Source: a virus
Direction: 5' to 3' (one strand)
Length of the DNA: 64,000 bases
IMG/VR virus record: IMGVR_UViG_3300035670_010555
Location: 1 to 64,000 of that record
In this document: in pieces, positions 425 through 61,459 of the stretch
Layout of the letters: each line of letters opens with the position of its first letter
Numbering within the stretch: the first letter of the stretch is position 1
Program-made: the position numbers and the translations under genes
Notes under the pieces: generated by a model
Seen by the model: only the letters and a program-made list of their open reading frames with translations
Told to the model about the DNA's origin: nothing
The model's database searches: none

Positions 425-3400
425 TACAATACCCAACGTAGTTTGTGCGTAGGAGTAATGTATCGAACCTTCAGTCGCTAAGGTAACTGTTCCTGTGACA
501 CTTCCTGTATTTGTTGCACGTACCTTAACAAGTATTTGGTCCGAAACTGTGAAAGTGTATCCAGTTTGATATACATCAGAAATTTCCATCGTAAACGTTG
601 GTGAATCCGATAATATAGGTGTTGGATCTGACGAGAATAAAAATGTTTCCGTACCTCCCGTAGTTCTTTTATACACCTCACAGAATATATCGAAAGCAGT
701 ACCACTTGATTTATAACTATGTAAAAAGAATTGCCATATTCCCGCAGGAATTGATGTAACCCCCGGAAAACCTGTATCCGTCAAAAATGACTGAATTGTA
801 TCTGTTAAACCAGATGCAATCGATGGCGATATTATAGTTTGTTCACCAGTATCCGTTGGAGATATCGAAAACTCCTTATATGGGCCTGAAGTGATTGACT
901 CATTGAAGTAGTATATGGCCCCTCCCGAAACCCCATTTACACCTGATGTTCCACTAGTACCTGAAGTACCAGACGTTCCGCTAGTACCTGATGTTCCCGA
1001 TGTTCCTGAGGTACCACTAGTTCCTGAAGTACCCGAAGTACCCGAAGTACCTGAGGTTCCTGATGTACCACTAGTTCCTGAAGTTCCACTAGTTCCTGAT
1101 GTACCTGAAGTACCCGATGTACCACTAGTACCTGAGGTTCCTGAAGTACCTGACGTACCACTTGTCCCTGATGTACCTGAAGTACCCGATGTACCGCTAG
1201 TTCCCGATGTACCACTAGTTCCCGATGTACCTGACGTACCACTTGTACCTGATGTACCTGATGTACCCGATGTACCACTAGTACCCGAAGTACCTGAGGT
1301 TCCTGATGTACCGCTAGTTCCTGAGGTTCCTGATGTACCGTCCGTTCCACTCGTACCCGATGTACCACTAGTGCCTGAGGTTCCTGATGTACCGCTAGTT
1401 CCTGATGTACCGCTAGTTCCTGATGTACCACTAGTACCTGATGTACCATCCGTTCCTGAGGTTCCTGATGTTCCACTAGTTCCTGAGGTACCTGATGTTC
1501 CACTAGTTCCAGATGTTCCCGAAGTTCCGGAAGTACCAGACGTCCCACTAGTACCTGATGTACCTGATGTACCACTAGTTCCAGACGTTCCACTAGTTCC
1601 AGATGTTCCCGAAGTACCACTAGTACCCGACGTACCACTTGTCCCTGATGTACCTGAAGTACCGTCCGTTCCACTTGTCCCTGATGTACCGCTAGTACCT
1701 GATGTACCGCTAGTACCTGAGGTACCACTAGTACCTGATGTTCCACTAGTACCTGATGTTCCACTAGTTCCAGATGTTCCACTAGTACCTGATGTCCCTG
1801 ATGTACCACTAGTACCTGATGTACCACTAGTACCTGATGTACCACTAGTACCTGATGTTCCCGATGTTCCTGAGGTACCACTAGTACCTGAGGTTCCACT
1901 AGTACCTGATGTTCCACTAGTCCCTGAAGTACCGCTAGTACCTGATGTTCCACTTGTACCTGAGGTTCCACTCGTACCTGAGGTGCCAGAAGTCCCACTA
2001 GTGCCAGATGTCCCATCAGTTCCACTTGTACCAGATGTACCACTAGTACCAGATGTGCCGGAAGTACCACTTGTTCCACTAGTTCCACTAGTTCCACTTG
2101 TTCCTGATGTACCAGAAGTTCCGCTGGTACCACTAGTTCCAGATGTTCCACTAGTCCCTGAAGTTCCTGACGTACCAGAAGTTCCTGAGGTGCCCGAAGT
2201 TCCACTAGTTCCTGAGGTACCAGAAGTTCCACTAGTGCCACTTGTTCCTGATGTTCCGCTTGTTCCTGAAGTTCCGCTGGATCCTGAAGTTCCTGATGTT
2301 CCATTCACACCCGAAAGACCTGATGTTCCTGAAGTCCCACTTGTTCCTGAGGTACCACTTGTTCCTGATGTACCACTTGTTCCTGAGGTACCACTTGTTC
2401 CTGAGGTACCACTTGTTCCTGAGGTACCACTTGTTCCACTAGTACCACTTGTTCCTGATGTTCCATCAGTTCCACTAGTACCTGATGTACCTGAAGTACC
2501 AGATGTTCCTGATGTTCCTGATGTTCCTGAAGTACCACTAGTTCCAGATGTTCCTGAAGTACCACTAGTACCTGAAGTACCACTAGTACCTGAGGTACCA
2601 CTTGTCCCACTAGTGCCCGATGTTCCTGAAGTACCCGATGTACCCGATGTACCCGATGTACCACTAGTACCTGATGTACCACTAGTTCCAGATGTTCCTG
2701 AAGTACCACTAGTACCTGAAGTACCCGATGTTCCACTCGTACCTGATGTTCCCGATGTTCCTGAAGTACCCGATGTACCACTAGTACCTGATGTTCCTGA
2801 TGTGCCACTAGTTCCTGAAGTACCTGACGTACCACTAGTACCTGAGGTGCCACTAGTACCTGAGGTGCCACTAGTACCTGAGGTACCACTAGTTCCTGAT
2901 GTCCCTGACGTACCCGAAGTACCATCAGTTCCCGAAGTACCATCAGTTCCACTAGTACCATCAGTTCCACTAGTACCTGAAGTACCAGATGTCCCTGAAG
3001 TACCACTAGTTCCTGATGTACCACTTGTACCTGATGTTCCCGAAGTACCAGATGTACCAGATGTTCCTGATGTTCCTGATGTCCCATCGGTACCTGAAGT
3101 ACCTGATGTTCCCGAAGTACCACTTGTGCCACTGGTCCCTGAAGTTCCACTAGTTCCTGATGTTCCGTCTGTTCCTGATGTTCCGTCTGTTCCTGATGTT
3201 CCGTCTGTTCCTGATGTCCCATCGGTACCTGAAGTACCTGAGGTTCCACTTGTACCTGATGTACCAGATGTTCCTGATGTTCCCGAAGTACCTGATGTAC
3301 CACTTGTACCTGAAGTACCATTCGTTCCCGCCGAACCAGATGTACCCGCTTGCCCAATAATATTTAACGTAAATTGAGTATCGTTTGGTATTGAACCAAC

Positions 3401-43669: not shown

Positions 43670-45526
43670 TCAGTAGGTCGCGGCTCCCCCTCCTCTGAAT
43701 ACATTAGTAGGATTAGTAACTCTAACTATATAATCCTTAAACTTATCTTCATTTAATTTATCCGAGATAGTTTTCGTAATTTGTTCTTTCTGATCTGAAC
43801 TCAATCCTGTCGGCATTTCTTGGAAATTAACGTTTACCTTTATTTCTCCAAGTAACTCAATTAGACTCTTTTGTTCTTTTACTTGGTCAGCAACTGTACC
43901 TAAATTTCGGTTTGCACCTGACATTCCTTCAGATGTGACTTTTGTCCAAAAATCATCCTCAGTTGTCGTTCCTCCTTTTCCCCCACCTTTGAACATTTCA
44001 AAATCAAGCCCTTTAATTTTACCACTTAAATTATCAAGAAGTAAATCTATCTTGTCAGTCATATTTCCTACAAAACCCCCTTTTTGTGACAATTCCTCTT
44101 TTATTTGGTCGCCCGCCTTTGACAACATATCTTTGGATGAGTCTGTTATAGTCCCAAATGATGCGGTAGAATTTGTCACCAATGTATCCAACGCCCCTTT
44201 TATATCTCCCTTAACAATCATATCTTCAACTGACTTTCTAAAATTAGTTGAAGCGGCTTCACTCATTTCCCTAATTCTTTCCATAGAAATATTTTCAACA
44301 CCAGCTCTTCCCGTAACTTCAGCCAATGTTCTACCCCCTTCTCGTAAATCTTGTATATTCTTATCTGTTAAAATACCACCCAAAACGGCATATTTGATTG
44401 CCGCGATATCACTCTGTATGATCTCATCAACAGTTAATTGAGCTCTTTGTAACTCTTCTACAGTCATAGCTTCTGTTTTTTGTTCCTTAATCAAATCATT
44501 TAATTGTTCTTGAGTAAGTTCTCCTAACTTGACGGCTTCTTCCTGCCCTTTTATTTTTACTTCATATTGTCCACCTTCTCCCATCCTACCGATGTTAGCA
44601 AGATATTGTTTGTCCTCCTCATTTTCGAATTTTAGACTTGGGCTTATTTGACCTAATCTCTGATCGAGTTCGGCAGCAGCTAATCCCAATTTCGACATTT
44701 CTTTCGCGCTAACTCCCGTCTGAGATTCCAACTCTTTTAAGGTTAATACTCCTTGTGGATTTATTTTGAAAGTTTTGGTTTTTTCATCGAAGTAAGTGAA
44801 TTGTTGTGCTACCTCTACTAAACTGTCTTGCAATGATCCAGGGTCATTTATTGACGCGTTCATCAAGGCGAAAGGGTCGGCCAAATTACCGACCGCTAAT
44901 CCTAATCTTTGAAATGCCGCTGCAGTTTCGACCGCTCCTTCAGGACTTAAAACTCTTTCAGCTAACTGAAAAGTTTGTTGCATGTCAAACCTCAACATGG
45001 ATGCTTGAGCAGCCATTTTGGTTAATCCTTGAACTCCCCCCTCAAATTGGTATCGGTTCATTTGCTCCATGTTCTTTTGAACATCTTGCATAACTTGCCG
45101 AGCATTTCCACCAATTCCTCTTACATAATCTATTGAGCCTTCAAGAGCATCTGATATCGATTGAATCCCGACCCCAACGTCCAAAAAACTGTTGCTTAAA
45201 TCTTGAGCACTTATTCCAAGTACTTTGGACGCAGAAAATAAAGCTTTTATTTCTTCTTCATTAGCAACGACATTTCTTCGTGCCGCCACTCCTACTTCTT
45301 GTATAATTCTACCGACATCCTTAATATCCCCCCCTAAACTTCTTACAGCGGGTAAAGAGTCCGCCACAGCTCTCTCAAATTCGAAAACTCTCTCTCTTCC
45401 TTGTGTGAAGGTACCGATAATTTGATTAGATATTTTATCTAAACTTTGTCTAACATCATCAAAACTAAAATTGTCTTTGGGTTTTTCCGCTCCAGTACCT
45501 GAAGCCGTTGCTTCTTGAAAAAACAT
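43670..45526 (-). CDS. Tail tape measure protein
   Basis: 618 aa, mostly alpha-helical, Ala/Gln/Glu-rich. MFFQEATASG start, followed by coiled segments (VFEFERAVADSLPAVRSLGG) and long helix-rich stretches resembling other tape measures (VEEIQLAAKYAV-like repeats). Position between the tail-chaperone pair and baseplate genes is the standard place for this gene. Length sets tail length: at 1.5 A per residue, 618 residues correspond to about 90 nm. Confidence 0.8.
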   Translation of the reverse strand: MFFQEATASGTGAEKPKDNFSFDDVRQSLDKISNQIIGTFTQGRERVFEFERAVADSLPAVRSLGGDIKDVGRIIQEVGVAARRNVVANEEEIKALFSASKVLGISAQDLSNSFLDVGVGIQSISDALEGSIDYVRGIGGNARQVMQDVQKNMEQMNRYQFEGGVQGLTKMAAQASMLRFDMQQTFQLAERVLSPEGAVETAAAFQRLGLAVGNLADPFALMNASINDPGSLQDSLVEVAQQFTYFDEKTKTFKINPQGVLTLKELESQTGVSAKEMSKLGLAAAELDQRLGQISPSLKFENEEDKQYLANIGRMGEGGQYEVKIKGQEEAVKLGELTQEQLNDLIKEQKTEAMTVEELQRAQLTVDEIIQSDIAAIKYAVLGGILTDKNIQDLREGGRTLAEVTGRAGVENISMERIREMSEAASTNFRKSVEDMIVKGDIKGALDTLVTNSTASFGTITDSSKDMLSKAGDQIKEELSQKGGFVGNMTDKIDLLLDNLSGKIKGLDFEMFKGGGKGGTTTEDDFWTKVTSEGMSGANRNLGTVADQVKEQKSLIELLGEIKVNVNFQEMPTGLSSDQKEQITKTISDKLNEDKFKDYIVRVTNPTNVFRGGGAATY

Positions 45527-53267: not shown

Positions 53268-55019
53268 ATGGATGTAAGTCTAGAATCGAAAGCATTATCA
53301 CTATTGGAATCTTATGAAGGTGGAAATAACTATTTACTTGAACTCAAACGAAAGTCTCAAATAAATAAAAGATTCTATCCAACAAGAAGCCAATCTGAGT
53401 ATATTATCAATAACCATAACAACCAACCAAAGGTTGCAAAGAAATGGGTCATACTAGATGCGTACTTTGCCAAAAAGTTAGCCGATGATAAATTATATAC
53501 CGTAATACCTGATAAAGTATGGGTTGAAAAATTATTGTGTGACACAGAAAAAGCTTTTCACATTTGGGGTAAGGTATTCGAAACTGAAGAATTCCACGAT
53601 TTTTGGTTACCAAAAGCTGCGATTATAAAAGACAATTCAGTTAAAGATGTTGTCATAGATTATAAAAAATATTCTCATAGACCCCCACTCGAACATCAAA
53701 AAGAAGCAATCCAAAAACTTGTTGAAAACAAAAAATACATATTGGCTGATGATATGGGTTTGGGGAAAACAACTTCAACGATCATCGCAGCTTTAGAAAC
53801 GGGAGCAAAGAAAATTCTAATCATTTGTCCAGCAACTCTTAAGATAAATTGGAAACGAGAAATTGAAAATTATTCAGATAGGTCGATATTCATATCAGAA
53901 GGAAAAACTTTTAGTACCGAACACGATTTCGTAATCATAAACTACGACATTATCAAAAACTTTCATGACACTAAGAAAAAAGATGAATCGCAAGTTATTG
54001 CTGCCAATTTTGATTTGGTGGTCGTTGACGAAGCTCACTATATCAAAAATCCTACAGCCCAAAGAACAAAACTAATAAACGACATCGCCAAAGGAGTTGA
54101 TAGATTATGGTTGTTAACAGGAACACCGATGACATCAAGACCTATGGATTATTTCAATCTATTACATCTTATTGAGTCGCCTGTTGCTAAAAATTGGATG
54201 GCTTACGCAATCAGATATTGTAGTGGGTATCAATTCAATGTTGGAGGACGTAAAGTTTGGAACGTAACAGGTTCATCCAATTTGGAAGAATTAAGAGACA
54301 GAACGACAGGTCTTGTGTTACGAAGACTCAAAGAAAACGTATTGGACTTACCCGAAAAAATAATAACCCCCGTTTATCTTAGATTGAAATCCAAAGCATA
54401 TGAAGAAGTTATGGGAGAGTATTATGATTGGTATGATAAGAACCCTGAAGAATCCAAATCATTAACGGTACAGTTTACCAAGCTTACCAAAGTACGACAA
54501 ATCATTGCCGATGAAAAAATACTTCAAACAATTGAAATTGCCGAAAACATTATTGAACAAGATAAGAAGGTAATTATTTTCTGTAACTTCACCGACTCTC
54601 TGAATAAAATTTGTCAACACTTTGGAAAAACTGCAGTCAAAGTGGATGGTTCGATGTCCAAATCTGAAAGACAACATAGTGTGGATAGTTTCCAAGAAAA
54701 TGATAAGGTCAAAGTATTTGTTGGTAACATTAAAGCTGCGGGAGTTGGTTTAACTTTGACTGCTGGTGAAGCGGTAATTATGAACGATCTATCATTCTTA
54801 CCATCTGACCACGCTCAAGCAGAGGATAGAGCATATAGATACGGTCAAAAAAACAACGTACTAGTTTATTACCCAATATTCGAAAATACAATCGAAGGAA
54901 TTATCTATGACATATTAAATAATAAAAAACAAGTCATAGCAACCGTAATGGGGGATAACCTTAATTCATCTGATATGGCTGAAGAAATTTTGAAGAGAAT
55001 AAACGAAATCAGAAAATAA
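53268..55019 (+). CDS. SNF2-family DNA helicase/translocase
   Basis: 583 aa. Residues 141-300 carry helicase motifs: DDMGLGKTT (161-169, Walker A), DEAH (254-257), LTGTP (283-287). Later VDGSMSKSERQ, AGVGLTLT and QAEDRAYRYGQ (motif VI) complete the SNF2 signature, close to SMARCAL1/HARP-type annealing helicases. The N-terminal 130 residues are phage-specific. In phages such proteins are thought to remodel forks or recombination intermediates. Starts the plus-strand group together with the SOD-nuclease fusion. Confidence 0.85.
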   Translation: MDVSLESKALSLLESYEGGNNYLLELKRKSQINKRFYPTRSQSEYIINNHNNQPKVAKKWVILDAYFAKKLADDKLYTVIPDKVWVEKLLCDTEKAFHIWGKVFETEEFHDFWLPKAAIIKDNSVKDVVIDYKKYSHRPPLEHQKEAIQKLVENKKYILADDMGLGKTTSTIIAALETGAKKILIICPATLKINWKREIENYSDRSIFISEGKTFSTEHDFVIINYDIIKNFHDTKKKDESQVIAANFDLVVVDEAHYIKNPTAQRTKLINDIAKGVDRLWLLTGTPMTSRPMDYFNLLHLIESPVAKNWMAYAIRYCSGYQFNVGGRKVWNVTGSSNLEELRDRTTGLVLRRLKENVLDLPEKIITPVYLRLKSKAYEEVMGEYYDWYDKNPEESKSLTVQFTKLTKVRQIIADEKILQTIEIAENIIEQDKKVIIFCNFTDSLNKICQHFGKTAVKVDGSMSKSERQHSVDSFQENDKVKVFVGNIKAAGVGLTLTAGEAVIMNDLSFLPSDHAQAEDRAYRYGQKNNVLVYYPIFENTIEGIIYDILNNKKQVIATVMGDNLNSSDMAEEILKRINEIRK

Positions 55020-55057: not shown

Positions 55058-56596
55058 ATGAATAAAACAGAAGAAAAGATTCAACAACTCGAATTACAGA
55101 TTGTAGAACAAAAAGTAACCAGAGAAAAAGAGTTGTTAATCACCGAAATGAAAAAAATAGGAATTGAGAAACTACCATATTCCTATTCCGCCCTCAAACA
55201 ATTTATTGACCCCGAAACAATGGATTTCCATTATAACAAACATTACAAGGGGTATGTTGATAAATTAAACGATGCTCTATCCAAGAAAAAATATGGAGAT
55301 TTAGAGTTAGAACAAATAATCAAAACAATAAGCCGATTTGACAAAACAATTAGAAATAATGCAGGTGGAGCATTTAACCACGCATTGTTTTGGAACATGC
55401 TAACACCTGAACCCAAAAGACTCAAAGGGGATTTACAGAAAAAAATTATCAAAGAGTTCGGTAGCTTCATTTTATTTAAGAAAAAGTTCGAAGAAATTGC
55501 CAAAGAAAGATTCGGGTCAGGATGGGTTTGGTTAGTTTTAACTGGTAGAAATACTTTGAAAATTATGTCCACCCCAAACCAAGATAACCCTTTGATGAAT
55601 ATTATTGAAGGTGGTGGATTTCCGTTATTAGGTTTGGATTTATGGGAACATGCATATTATCTCAAGTATAAAAACAAAAGAGACGAATATATTTCTAACT
55701 TTTGGAAAGTGGTGAATTGGGAATTTGTTTCCAAACTTTATGATATGAAAACAGAAACAAAACTTTTGGAATCTGTTGAAATGAAAAAAATTATCAAAGA
55801 ATTCAAGGAACCAAAATTTTGTGATTCAAATGAAATTACTTTTTATAAAGAATTAATCAACAATCCAAAGATAAAAAAATTATACCAAGAAGGTGTTACT
55901 GATGTTTTGAAAAAAGTATTTCATGAATATTGGGTGGAGAGTAATGAGAAAGAAATGTCTGGCTTTTATGGGATTGAATCCGACAGTGCTAGATCAGTTT
56001 TGAATAATTTGAATACCAACTTTAACACTTTTTGTTTATTAACAAAAGCAATCAATAGACAGATAGAATCGATTAACAAACCAAACAAAAAATTCGATTT
56101 TTCCATCAAAGAGAAACGAACAATTAGTGAGGTCAATAGACTTATTGCTGCGTTAGATTATTTCAAAAAAGAAATTTTTACAAAAAACAACGAAGATTTT
56201 GTTAACATTATAAGTGTGTTATTAAAACTTTGGGATAGAGGGCAAAAATCTGAAGACAAAGTTCTTTCTAAAATAGAGCAATATTTCGGTAAAGATTCTT
56301 CAGTTGAAAAGATAGGTGGCCATGGTCAGAAAAGTGACGCATTCAAAGGTATTGATTTGATTGTCAATGTTGGTGGTAAAAAACACACCGCTCAAGTGAA
56401 ACCTTTTTCTTCTATAAAAAAAGAAGGAGATAAAATCACAGTTTTGAATACAGGTAACGTTAAACCATATAACGTAGATTGGATGATATTTATAAACACT
56501 AAGTCTAATAAAATTCTAATTATTGAGAATAATCCGATTGAGAGCCGTGACCAATATGTTTTCAATGTGTCATCTCTAATTCACGAAATAGATTAA
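55058..56596 (+). CDS. Mn/Fe superoxide dismutase fused to a PD-(D/E)XK-like domain
   Basis: 512 aa. Residues 1-35 form a coiled coil; residues about 36-230 are a full Mn/Fe-SOD fold: MDFHYNKHY, RNNAGGAFNHALFW, TPNQDNPLM, GLDLWEHAYYLKY and KVVNWEF. All four metal ligands are present (His58, His108, Asp194, His198). Gln174 sits where manganese SODs place their glutamine. Residues about 235-400 are helical and unassigned. Residues about 400-490 look like a PD-(D/E)XK-type nuclease core: a helix, then GID433, a beta-hairpin and Gln446-Val-Lys448 (Gln instead of the usual Glu). SOD activity is likely from the residues; nuclease activity is a structural inference. It follows the SNF2 gene in one direction. 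I know of no standard annotation for this fusion. Confidence 0.8.
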   Translation: MNKTEEKIQQLELQIVEQKVTREKELLITEMKKIGIEKLPYSYSALKQFIDPETMDFHYNKHYKGYVDKLNDALSKKKYGDLELEQIIKTISRFDKTIRNNAGGAFNHALFWNMLTPEPKRLKGDLQKKIIKEFGSFILFKKKFEEIAKERFGSGWVWLVLTGRNTLKIMSTPNQDNPLMNIIEGGGFPLLGLDLWEHAYYLKYKNKRDEYISNFWKVVNWEFVSKLYDMKTETKLLESVEMKKIIKEFKEPKFCDSNEITFYKELINNPKIKKLYQEGVTDVLKKVFHEYWVESNEKEMSGFYGIESDSARSVLNNLNTNFNTFCLLTKAINRQIESINKPNKKFDFSIKEKRTISEVNRLIAALDYFKKEIFTKNNEDFVNIISVLLKLWDRGQKSEDKVLSKIEQYFGKDSSVEKIGGHGQKSDAFKGIDLIVNVGGKKHTAQVKPFSSIKKEGDKITVLNTGNVKPYNVDWMIFINTKSNKILIIENNPIESRDQYVFNVSSLIHEID

Positions 56597-56614: not shown

Positions 56615-57742
56615 ATGTCAGCAATACCAGAACCAGAACGAAGTAGGATATACACTAGAATTAAACACCAATTAGGTGCTCCACTCAGAAGTGTCGAACT
56701 CGAAGACGAAATGTTGGATTCACTAATGGAATTAGCCATAGGGGACTATGAAGAATATATCCTTCAGTGGTTAATCGATTCACAGTGGGTTAATCTCGTA
56801 AACTTGAATATGAACGAAAGGTCAGTTGCCAGAGCGTTGGTAACTCGAACTATGGATTTTGAACAACAATTCAGTTATTCATATTCGAAAATTGTGGGTC
56901 TACAAACCACAGGCCCTTGGGTTCTAAAAAAAGATTATTTTATTTTAAGTGCTAATACACAAACTTACGAAATTCCCGCAGGACGAGAAGTAAATGAATT
57001 GTTGTGGTTTTCTAATCAACCTTGGACAGCATTTGGATTAGGAGGGGTTGGAGGATTCGGATTCGGAGGTATCGGATTAGGGGCTAATGAAGCTGGTTAT
57101 GCTCAAATGGGATATCAAGGGTCATACTTTATGATGTCAGGATTTGACTACTTAATTAGAATGCAAGAGGCGAATATTCTAAACAGAATCTTAGGAGGTT
57201 CCTTAACATATAGAATTACTGGTCTTCCTGATGGAAAAAGACTTATCCACTTATATAACACTCCTGGAGGAAGATTCAATTGGAATAACTACAGTTTGTA
57301 TGTTGGTAAAGCGGTATGGTATTGGTATTATGATGTTGAACCTGATAGTCGAGCCGATTGTTTGAAGAACAATCCTGACATTATCAAACTACCTACTGAT
57401 GTACCTATTGAAGAATTGACTTGGACTGACCTAAATGTGCCAGGCCAACAATGGGTTAGAAGATGGTTCACCGCTTATTGTAAAGAAACTTTGGCAAGAG
57501 TAAGAGGTAAATATAGTGGTAATCTTAAGACACCTGATAGTGAGATAGTTATGGACTATCAGAGTTTGTTAACTGAGGCTAAAGATGAAAAAACTAAATT
57601 AATCGAAGAATTAATTGGTGCTGAAGGTTGGTTAACAAGATTGAGACCTGAAAAAGTAATGGAGAGAGAGGCATTAATTGCCGAAAATCTAAATAAACAA
57701 ATGAAGTTTAGAGCAATGCCTCGACAAATTTACGTAATTTAA
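56615..57742 (+). CDS. Neck protein, gp13-like
   Basis: 375 aa. The pattern MELAIGDYEEYILQWLIDSQ then LNMNERSVARALVTRTMDFE and the C-terminal QWVRRWFTAYCKETLARVRG fit gp13-like head-completion proteins of T4-like phages. A Gly-rich stretch at about residues 138-160 is extra. gp13 is needed to close the head before the tail binds, together with gp14. It is separated from the rest of the structural cluster and on the opposite strand. Confidence 0.75.
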   Translation: MSAIPEPERSRIYTRIKHQLGAPLRSVELEDEMLDSLMELAIGDYEEYILQWLIDSQWVNLVNLNMNERSVARALVTRTMDFEQQFSYSYSKIVGLQTTGPWVLKKDYFILSANTQTYEIPAGREVNELLWFSNQPWTAFGLGGVGGFGFGGIGLGANEAGYAQMGYQGSYFMMSGFDYLIRMQEANILNRILGGSLTYRITGLPDGKRLIHLYNTPGGRFNWNNYSLYVGKAVWYWYYDVEPDSRADCLKNNPDIIKLPTDVPIEELTWTDLNVPGQQWVRRWFTAYCKETLARVRGKYSGNLKTPDSEIVMDYQSLLTEAKDEKTKLIEELIGAEGWLTRLRPEKVMEREALIAENLNKQMKFRAMPRQIYVI

Positions 57743-60961: not shown

Positions 60962-61459
60962 TTATAATAAAAGTTTTGGACTATTTTTGTTTTCCTTTGT
61001 CGTCATCAAATAAGAACCATTTTTTGAAAAAGCTGAAGTAATGATTTTATAATTTTTCAAATCATCTGCTAACACAATAAACTCCAAATAGTTCATAAAG
61101 TACGGTAATCCCAAATCATCTCCTACTTCTTTGATTACTGAAATAGTATTATTTGGTCTTACTAAATCTAACTTTGACATTTTATTTTTTATTTTATCAA
61201 AGTCGTCAATAAAAATACTTCCAATTAATTTATTGGGGGCTCCGACTCTTTCAAAAAATTTTGGGTTGTTAGCAAAATTATAATCGTAAATTTCCACAAT
61301 TTCGTCAAGAGATTTATTTCCTTGTCGTTGATTCCATTGATGGTATGTTGCAGACAAATTTATCAAAAATTTATCATGAACAAAACTCACAATAGGTAAC
61401 GACCCATCAGGTTTTACTTGTTCTAAAATTAAATCGGATAATAGTCGGGTTAGTTTCAT
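60962..61459 (-). CDS. Protein of unknown function
   Basis: 165 aa, starts MKLTRLLSDLILEQ. No motif recognised; the N-terminus looks helical and the remainder mixed. Sits upstream of the polymerase in the same direction, 103 bases away. Function unknown. Confidence 0.6.
   Translation of the reverse strand: MKLTRLLSDLILEQVKPDGSLPIVSFVHDKFLINLSATYHQWNQRQGNKSLDEIVEIYDYNFANNPKFFERVGAPNKLIGSIFIDDFDKIKNKMSKLDLVRPNNTISVIKEVGDDLGLPYFMNYLEFIVLADDLKNYKIITSAFSKNGSYLMTTKENKNSPKLLL

Follow-up and report, generated by a model that had tools for sequence, protein, structure and literature searches.

A superoxide dismutase-nuclease fusion gene and its surroundings

The window analysed here comprises 64,000 nucleotides, positions 1 to 64,000, of the 169,854-base phage record IMGVR_UViG_3300035670_010555 in IMG/VR. 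A gene at 55058..56596 of this window encodes a protein of 512 amino acids in which a manganese-type superoxide dismutase (SOD) domain is followed by a helical middle domain and, according to motif and predicted fold, a PD-(D/E)XK nuclease domain. Computation showed the fusion itself and, in both domains, intact motifs and purifying selection; it also showed that the nuclease half is exchanged between relatives, that the nuclease has stand-alone relatives and that one lineage has cleanly lost the SOD. Other genes of the record encode a tail sheath, a baseplate, a ribonucleotide reductase, a UvsX-like recombinase and a DNA polymerase. Since the contigs of the nearest relatives reach 326 kb, the window very probably derives from a jumbo phage. 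The features of the locus are as follows.

53268..55019, + strand: SNF2-family helicase, constant upstream neighbour
55058..56596, + strand: SOD-nuclease fusion gene, 512 amino acids; ATG start, 0 internal stops, full-length relatives in IMG/VR
55058..55162, + strand: N-terminal coil, residues 1-35, partly retained in SOD-less orthologues
55163..55747, + strand: Mn-type (SodFM1-like) SOD domain, residues 36-230, with H58, H108, D194 and H198 as well as H62, Y66, Q175, G192 and E197
55775..55801, + strand: approximate recombination boundary, codons ~240-248, where the C-terminal alleles diverge as judged by DNA identity
55787..56227, + strand: helical middle domain, residues ~244-390, with an NNLNTN motif; swaps along with the nuclease
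56228..56593, + strand: predicted PD-(D/E)XK nuclease domain, residues 391-512, with invariant E399, D433 and Q446-x-K448
56615..57742, + strand: neck or head-tail adaptor-like gene, constant downstream neighbour, gap of 18 bp

The first-pass annotation had proposed such a fusion from the single sequence and had noted that the SNF2 helicase runs in the same direction, which it does. Full-length relatives were found at 80 IMG/VR loci, and further ones were obtained with other queries. Complete fusions amounted to 118 distinct proteins of 508-513 amino acids from many separate metagenomes, and all SOD ligands, second-sphere residues and nuclease residues that were tested were invariant in 118 out of 118. 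Another 40 sequences agreed, including diverged ones with SOD identities of 59-76%. In all contigs covering the flanks, the fusion gene has the SNF2 helicase upstream and the neck gene downstream. It is present in every fully covered clade member examined, and no second copy was found in the window contig. Neither of the two outcomes that the first-pass annotation had named as refuting its proposal occurred: the C-terminal region is predicted to adopt a PD-(D/E)XK core, and the fusion recurs in the 118 proteins.

The dismutase and nuclease domains

The SOD half was recognised by the Pfam models Sod_Fe_C (E 3.2e-39, residues 123-226) and Sod_Fe_N (E 1.3e-22, residues 37-115), with 133.5 and 80.4 bits exceeding the respective cut-offs of 20.9 and 27. 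Its best sequence match in the PDB was 6gsc (E 4.4e-59 over residues 38-230). The intact Mn/Fe-SOD fold with four metal ligands described initially was thus borne out, H58, H108, D194 and H198 being conserved in the 118 fusions and in 40 of the 40 further sequences. The second-sphere residues H62, Y66 and Q175 and the dimer-interface residue Glu197 were likewise invariant across the fusions. The manganese-type glutamine is indeed present, but at position 175 and not 174 as first assigned. Mn-preferring SodFM1 enzymes, which are homodimers, are marked by a Gln in the C-terminal half together with a Gly two residues before the Asp ligand (PMC10172142), a pattern that Q175 and G192 match. Based on these sequence features, the SOD domain is very likely to be catalytically active.

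The fusion SODs formed one group (93/94) when placed in a tree whose other members were mainly from Bacteroidota. As they group beside mostly Bacteroidota enzymes, a Bacteroidota host is suggested, though not proven. The fusion SOD shares its fold, all ligands and the Mn-type Gln and Gly with Bacteroidota-type SodFM1 enzymes such as those of PDB entries 6gsc and 5a9g, and is 45-56% identical to the nearest bacterial enzymes. However, none of the bacterial SODs in the tree sample carries such a C-terminal extension, whereas the phage domain sits within a nuclease protein. Stand-alone SODs of other jumbo phages, namely the Pseudomonas phage PA5oct group and Vibrio phage 2.275.O, are likewise phage-encoded members of the Mn/Fe-SOD family, but they are only ~30% identical, shorter than 200 amino acids and devoid of a nuclease domain.

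For the C-terminal half, profile searches yielded no convincing Pfam or PHROG family. None exceeded the cut-off: phrog_5018 reached at best an E value of 9e-4, and matches to DUF6602/MC4 were marginal. A PDB sequence search with C-terminal profiles returned nothing meaningful. An AlphaFold2 model of residues 231-512, built from an alignment of 26 diverse sequences, reached a predicted local distance difference test score (pLDDT) of 84 and a predicted template modelling score (pTM) of 0.72 and displayed, in order, a helical domain, one long helix and a beta core. A full-length model from a shallow alignment was poor in its SOD half, and this model was left out of the fold search. The best PDB fold matches of the C-terminal model were the homing endonuclease I-Ssp6803I (E 1.4e-3) and the archaeal resolvase Hjc (E 4.2e-3), both with a probability of 1.00, and chains of the SPARDA complex were also among the matches. 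D433, Q446 and K448 were found as claimed in the first-pass annotation. With E399, an invariant residue of the helix that precedes them, the site is complete, and Q446 occupies the D/E position of the (D/E/Q)-x-K motif. All alleles share these residues without exception, as do the SOD-less orthologues and the stand-alone homologues. Because motif and predicted fold agree, we accept the C-terminal half as a PD-(D/E)XK nuclease despite the weak E values, and it is likely to be active. The module shares the predicted fold and the E...D...QxK arrangement with I-Ssp6803I, Hjc resolvases and SPARDA chains, but it could be placed in no known sequence family and carries its own helical partner domain of ~150 residues. 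A bacterial origin of the module was rejected: no relative occurred among the genome contigs searched, and none that was credible among 396 genomes from the phylum of the L295 genome, where a single 30-residue match was noise.

The ratio of nonsynonymous to synonymous substitution rates (dN/dS) was ~0.04 for the SOD, ~0.14 for the middle and ~0.18 for the nuclease domain; these are rough values, since many pairs approach saturation at synonymous sites. The low ratio in each indicates that all three domains are under constraint.

Exchange of the C-terminal half and loss of the dismutase

One view of the exchange is offered by the relative at locus L147, whose SOD is the sister of the window's SOD in the tree. 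Between the two, the helicase is 97%, the SOD 98% and the neck protein 99% identical, while the middle domain and the nuclease share only 42% and 38%. At the DNA level, identity is ~93% up to codon 240 and ~50% past codon 245, placing the break near codon 243, and at the protein level it recovers to the 99% of the neck in the next gene. The C-terminal module is thus exchanged as a unit. Two main allele types (66 and 50 sequences), which are 30-45% identical to each other, and two singletons were distinguished. In the closest pair across the two main types, SODs that are 99% identical are joined to C-termini of 36% identity. A contig with an allele of the other type is colinear over ~60 kb; identity there amounts to 88-98% for the majority of genes and to 71-82% for the large tail genes, as compared to 38% for the C-terminal half. 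Because the nuclease half is so much more diverged than these ~60 kb of colinear surroundings, the reading we favour from the sequences is that it is under antagonistic selection. As in polymorphic toxins, a conserved N-terminus is joined to an exchangeable C-terminal effector; an adjacent cognate immunity gene, in contrast, was not found, the gene 18 bp downstream being the neck gene, which is 86-99% conserved across alleles. Only one other gene was comparably variable, at 43670-45526 (- strand; 618 amino acids, family unassigned), with 48-55% identity in all three relatives, the other genes of which are about 90% identical. Situated in the tail/baseplate region, it may encode a host-recognition protein.

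The nuclease module also occurs without a SOD, including as a separate protein in unrelated huge phages. The 735-kb phage LR756501 encodes a 290-amino-acid stand-alone homologue (hhalign probability 97.9, E 4.8e-13; hidden Markov model E 3.7e-18), and no SOD was found in that record. Stand-alone nucleases also occur at L397/L399; viral contigs yielded no relatives with the single query L375, and relatives were found with a mixed alignment. Some diverged members of the clade itself have a helicase-nuclease-neck locus with a SOD-less protein of 277-309 amino acids. In an unrooted tree these SOD-less orthologues form one group (93/88) with SOD-bearing L455 as nearest neighbour. The nuclease DNA of SOD-less L439 is 89% identical to that of L455, and in L439 the N-terminal coil (NEMKKIEIEKL) runs directly into the middle domain, a sequence arrangement that indicates a clean in-frame loss of the SOD. 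No SOD was detected elsewhere in the SOD-less contigs (160-318 kb), while SOD-bearing contigs were positive in the same search. As the SOD-less group is nested in the tree, unrooted though it is, loss appears simpler than separate gains. Because the module stands alone elsewhere and one sub-lineage lost its SOD, the nuclease is the core that is always kept, and the SOD an added part, strongly constrained yet dispensable and once lost, a point that the first-pass annotation had missed.

Two database proteins extend this picture. A0A6J5L953 (UniProt; uncultured Caudovirales phage, 501 amino acids), annotated as 'superoxide dismutase', matched the C-terminal model along the full extent of that model in BFVD (TMq 0.77, E 1.3e-18) and is, on this structural match, almost certainly a member of the family. 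Its annotation names the SOD only, and the nuclease half apparently went unrecognised. Thus, phage proteins labelled plainly as superoxide dismutase can conceal a nuclease. In addition, A0A8D9CCA0, a 1113-amino-acid protein of an uncultured marine phage, matched the module (TMq 0.71) and may represent a different fusion, with the module joined to other partners too.

Candidate functions of the fusion protein

We tentatively favour, at somewhat less than even odds, the explanation that the protein is a DNA-cleaving conflict effector directed against DNA of competing phages or of the host, with built-in protection from superoxide. The core of the gene would be a metal-dependent PD-(D/E)XK DNA endonuclease with its helical companion domain, which would probably cut non-self DNA, either the host chromosome or the DNA of a relative infecting the same cell, perhaps jointly with the adjacent SNF2 helicase. 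The N-terminal half would be a working Bacteroidota-type Mn-SOD that clears superoxide at the protein's site of action and, as the usual SodFM1 homodimer, would pair two nuclease subunits. Cleavage targets may differ between alleles. An activity against host or competitor DNA had already been suggested at the outset; the swapping of alleles is consistent with it, the DNA target itself being our inference. Less probable, and held with some doubt, is the extended proposal that the specificity modules of a conflict nuclease are open to exchange, that the protein couples DNA attack to redox protection, and that co-infecting relatives shut each other out when their alleles differ. Jumbo phages provide a precedent, as the homing endonuclease gp210 of PhiPA3 takes part in phage-phage interference (PMC11620839). 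It may serve as a model for the proposed role, since in that case a jumbo phage turns a nuclease on a relative in the same infection, although a shared function would be by analogy and gp210 is intron-encoded with no enzyme fused to it. The neighbouring helicase had its best PADLOC match in Zorya ZorD (E 1.5e-47), which combines an SNF2 helicase with an Mrr-like nuclease, and here as well a PD-(D/E)XK gene adjoins. However, other SNF2 models matched nearly equally, and with Zorya partner genes sought no further, the locus is not Zorya on this evidence.

Several observations weigh against a conflict effector. The fold matches in the PDB lie only between E 1e-3 and 1e-2, 0 of them passing E 0.001, and near-saturated dS in many pairs makes the dN/dS values approximate. 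Neither an immunity gene nor a DNA-modification gene was identified next to the fusion gene, so that self-protection is unaccounted for. The occurrence of the gene in every fully covered clade member examined is more reminiscent of a housekeeping function than of an accessory weapon. Finally, the exchange of alleles could follow differences between hosts, or a host defence, instead.

The chief rival, which we regard as rather unlikely, is a branch-resolving nuclease of the Holliday-junction type that processes recombination intermediates before packaging together with an SNF2/UvsW-like helicase, the SOD guarding DNA late in infection. Archaeal Hjc is the second-best fold match, and both the constant helicase and neck neighbours and the presence throughout the clade are in line with this role. 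Furthermore, RuvC, Hjc and RusA families were unmatched in seven relatives of up to 326 kb with positive controls, other resolvase families not having been searched; the Hjc Pfam model gave 0 matches at E 0.1 in seven genomes that each encode the fusion protein. Endonuclease VII was also unmatched, but its positive control was silent. On the other hand, a housekeeping resolvase would be expected neither to rank with the most rapidly diverging parts of the genome nor to occur as swapped alleles of 36% identity, and the stand-alone homologues from other huge phages are located, as far as visible, amid small uncharacterised genes and not beside a helicase or neck gene. Sequence alone could not separate a conflict effector from a resolvase.

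That the module is a homing-type mobile nuclease which spreads itself into the gene copies of relatives, thereby producing the allele exchange, appears improbable. The best fold match is a PD-(D/E)XK homing endonuclease, I-Ssp6803I, and the swap resembles gene conversion and stops at the end of the gene. HNH-type endonuclease genes (220-253 amino acids) lie between the helicase and the fusion gene at L004, L007, L045, L234 and L269 and may drive local gene conversion; being separate genes, they could account for the swapping in place of the module. In the close clade no empty allele was seen and all complete copies contain the nuclease module; the exchange takes place between two occupied alleles.

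The first-pass annotation had also considered the SOD fold as a structural or sensor domain only. Many PD-(D/E)XK enzymes work as dimers, and a scaffold for oligomerisation or metal sensing would be in keeping with the invariant dimer-interface Glu197. The homodimeric state of SodFM1 enzymes (PMC10172142) points the same way. However, the catalytic second-sphere residues H62, Y66 and Q175 are invariant too, the dN/dS of 0.04 for the SOD is far below that of the nuclease half, and one lineage retains the nuclease without a SOD, which makes a pure scaffold quite improbable. An annotation artefact, in which a sequencing or assembly error joined two genes, was rejected as practically impossible given the number of independent assemblies and the diverged fusions, even though the two parts occupy different reading frames at one locus (L428, 4168-5600), through a frameshift, a split gene or a sequencing error.

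A literature search restricted to open-licence papers retrieved no published report of a SOD-nuclease fusion. Both domains are of known kinds; as far as can be told, what is new is their union, together with the exchange of one half and the loss of the SOD in nature. A SOD and a DNA nuclease in one protein are an unexpected pairing, maintained under strong selection across a large clade of jumbo phages from many metagenomes. Swapped alleles in near-identical phages, SOD-loss orthologues and stand-alone nucleases provide natural variants with which the question can be tested. The fusion could explain a phage's need for redox protection at a nuclease, and the locus may mark a new site of phage-phage or phage-host conflict.

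Minor observations concern other genes of the window and the locus. A 165-amino-acid gene at 60962-61459 (- strand) had 0 matches in three otherwise colinear relatives. At 915-3377 (+ strand) and 937-2304 (- strand), two long open reading frames of 820 and 455 amino acids overlap on opposite strands, and both match relatives at 43-65%, so that either strand may be the coding one. Between helicase and SOD gene, L147 carries a 530-amino-acid gene of unassigned function that does not occur in the window, and one subgroup (L069, L073, L075, L077, L200 and L207) has a gene of 69-71 amino acids between the helicase and the fusion gene.
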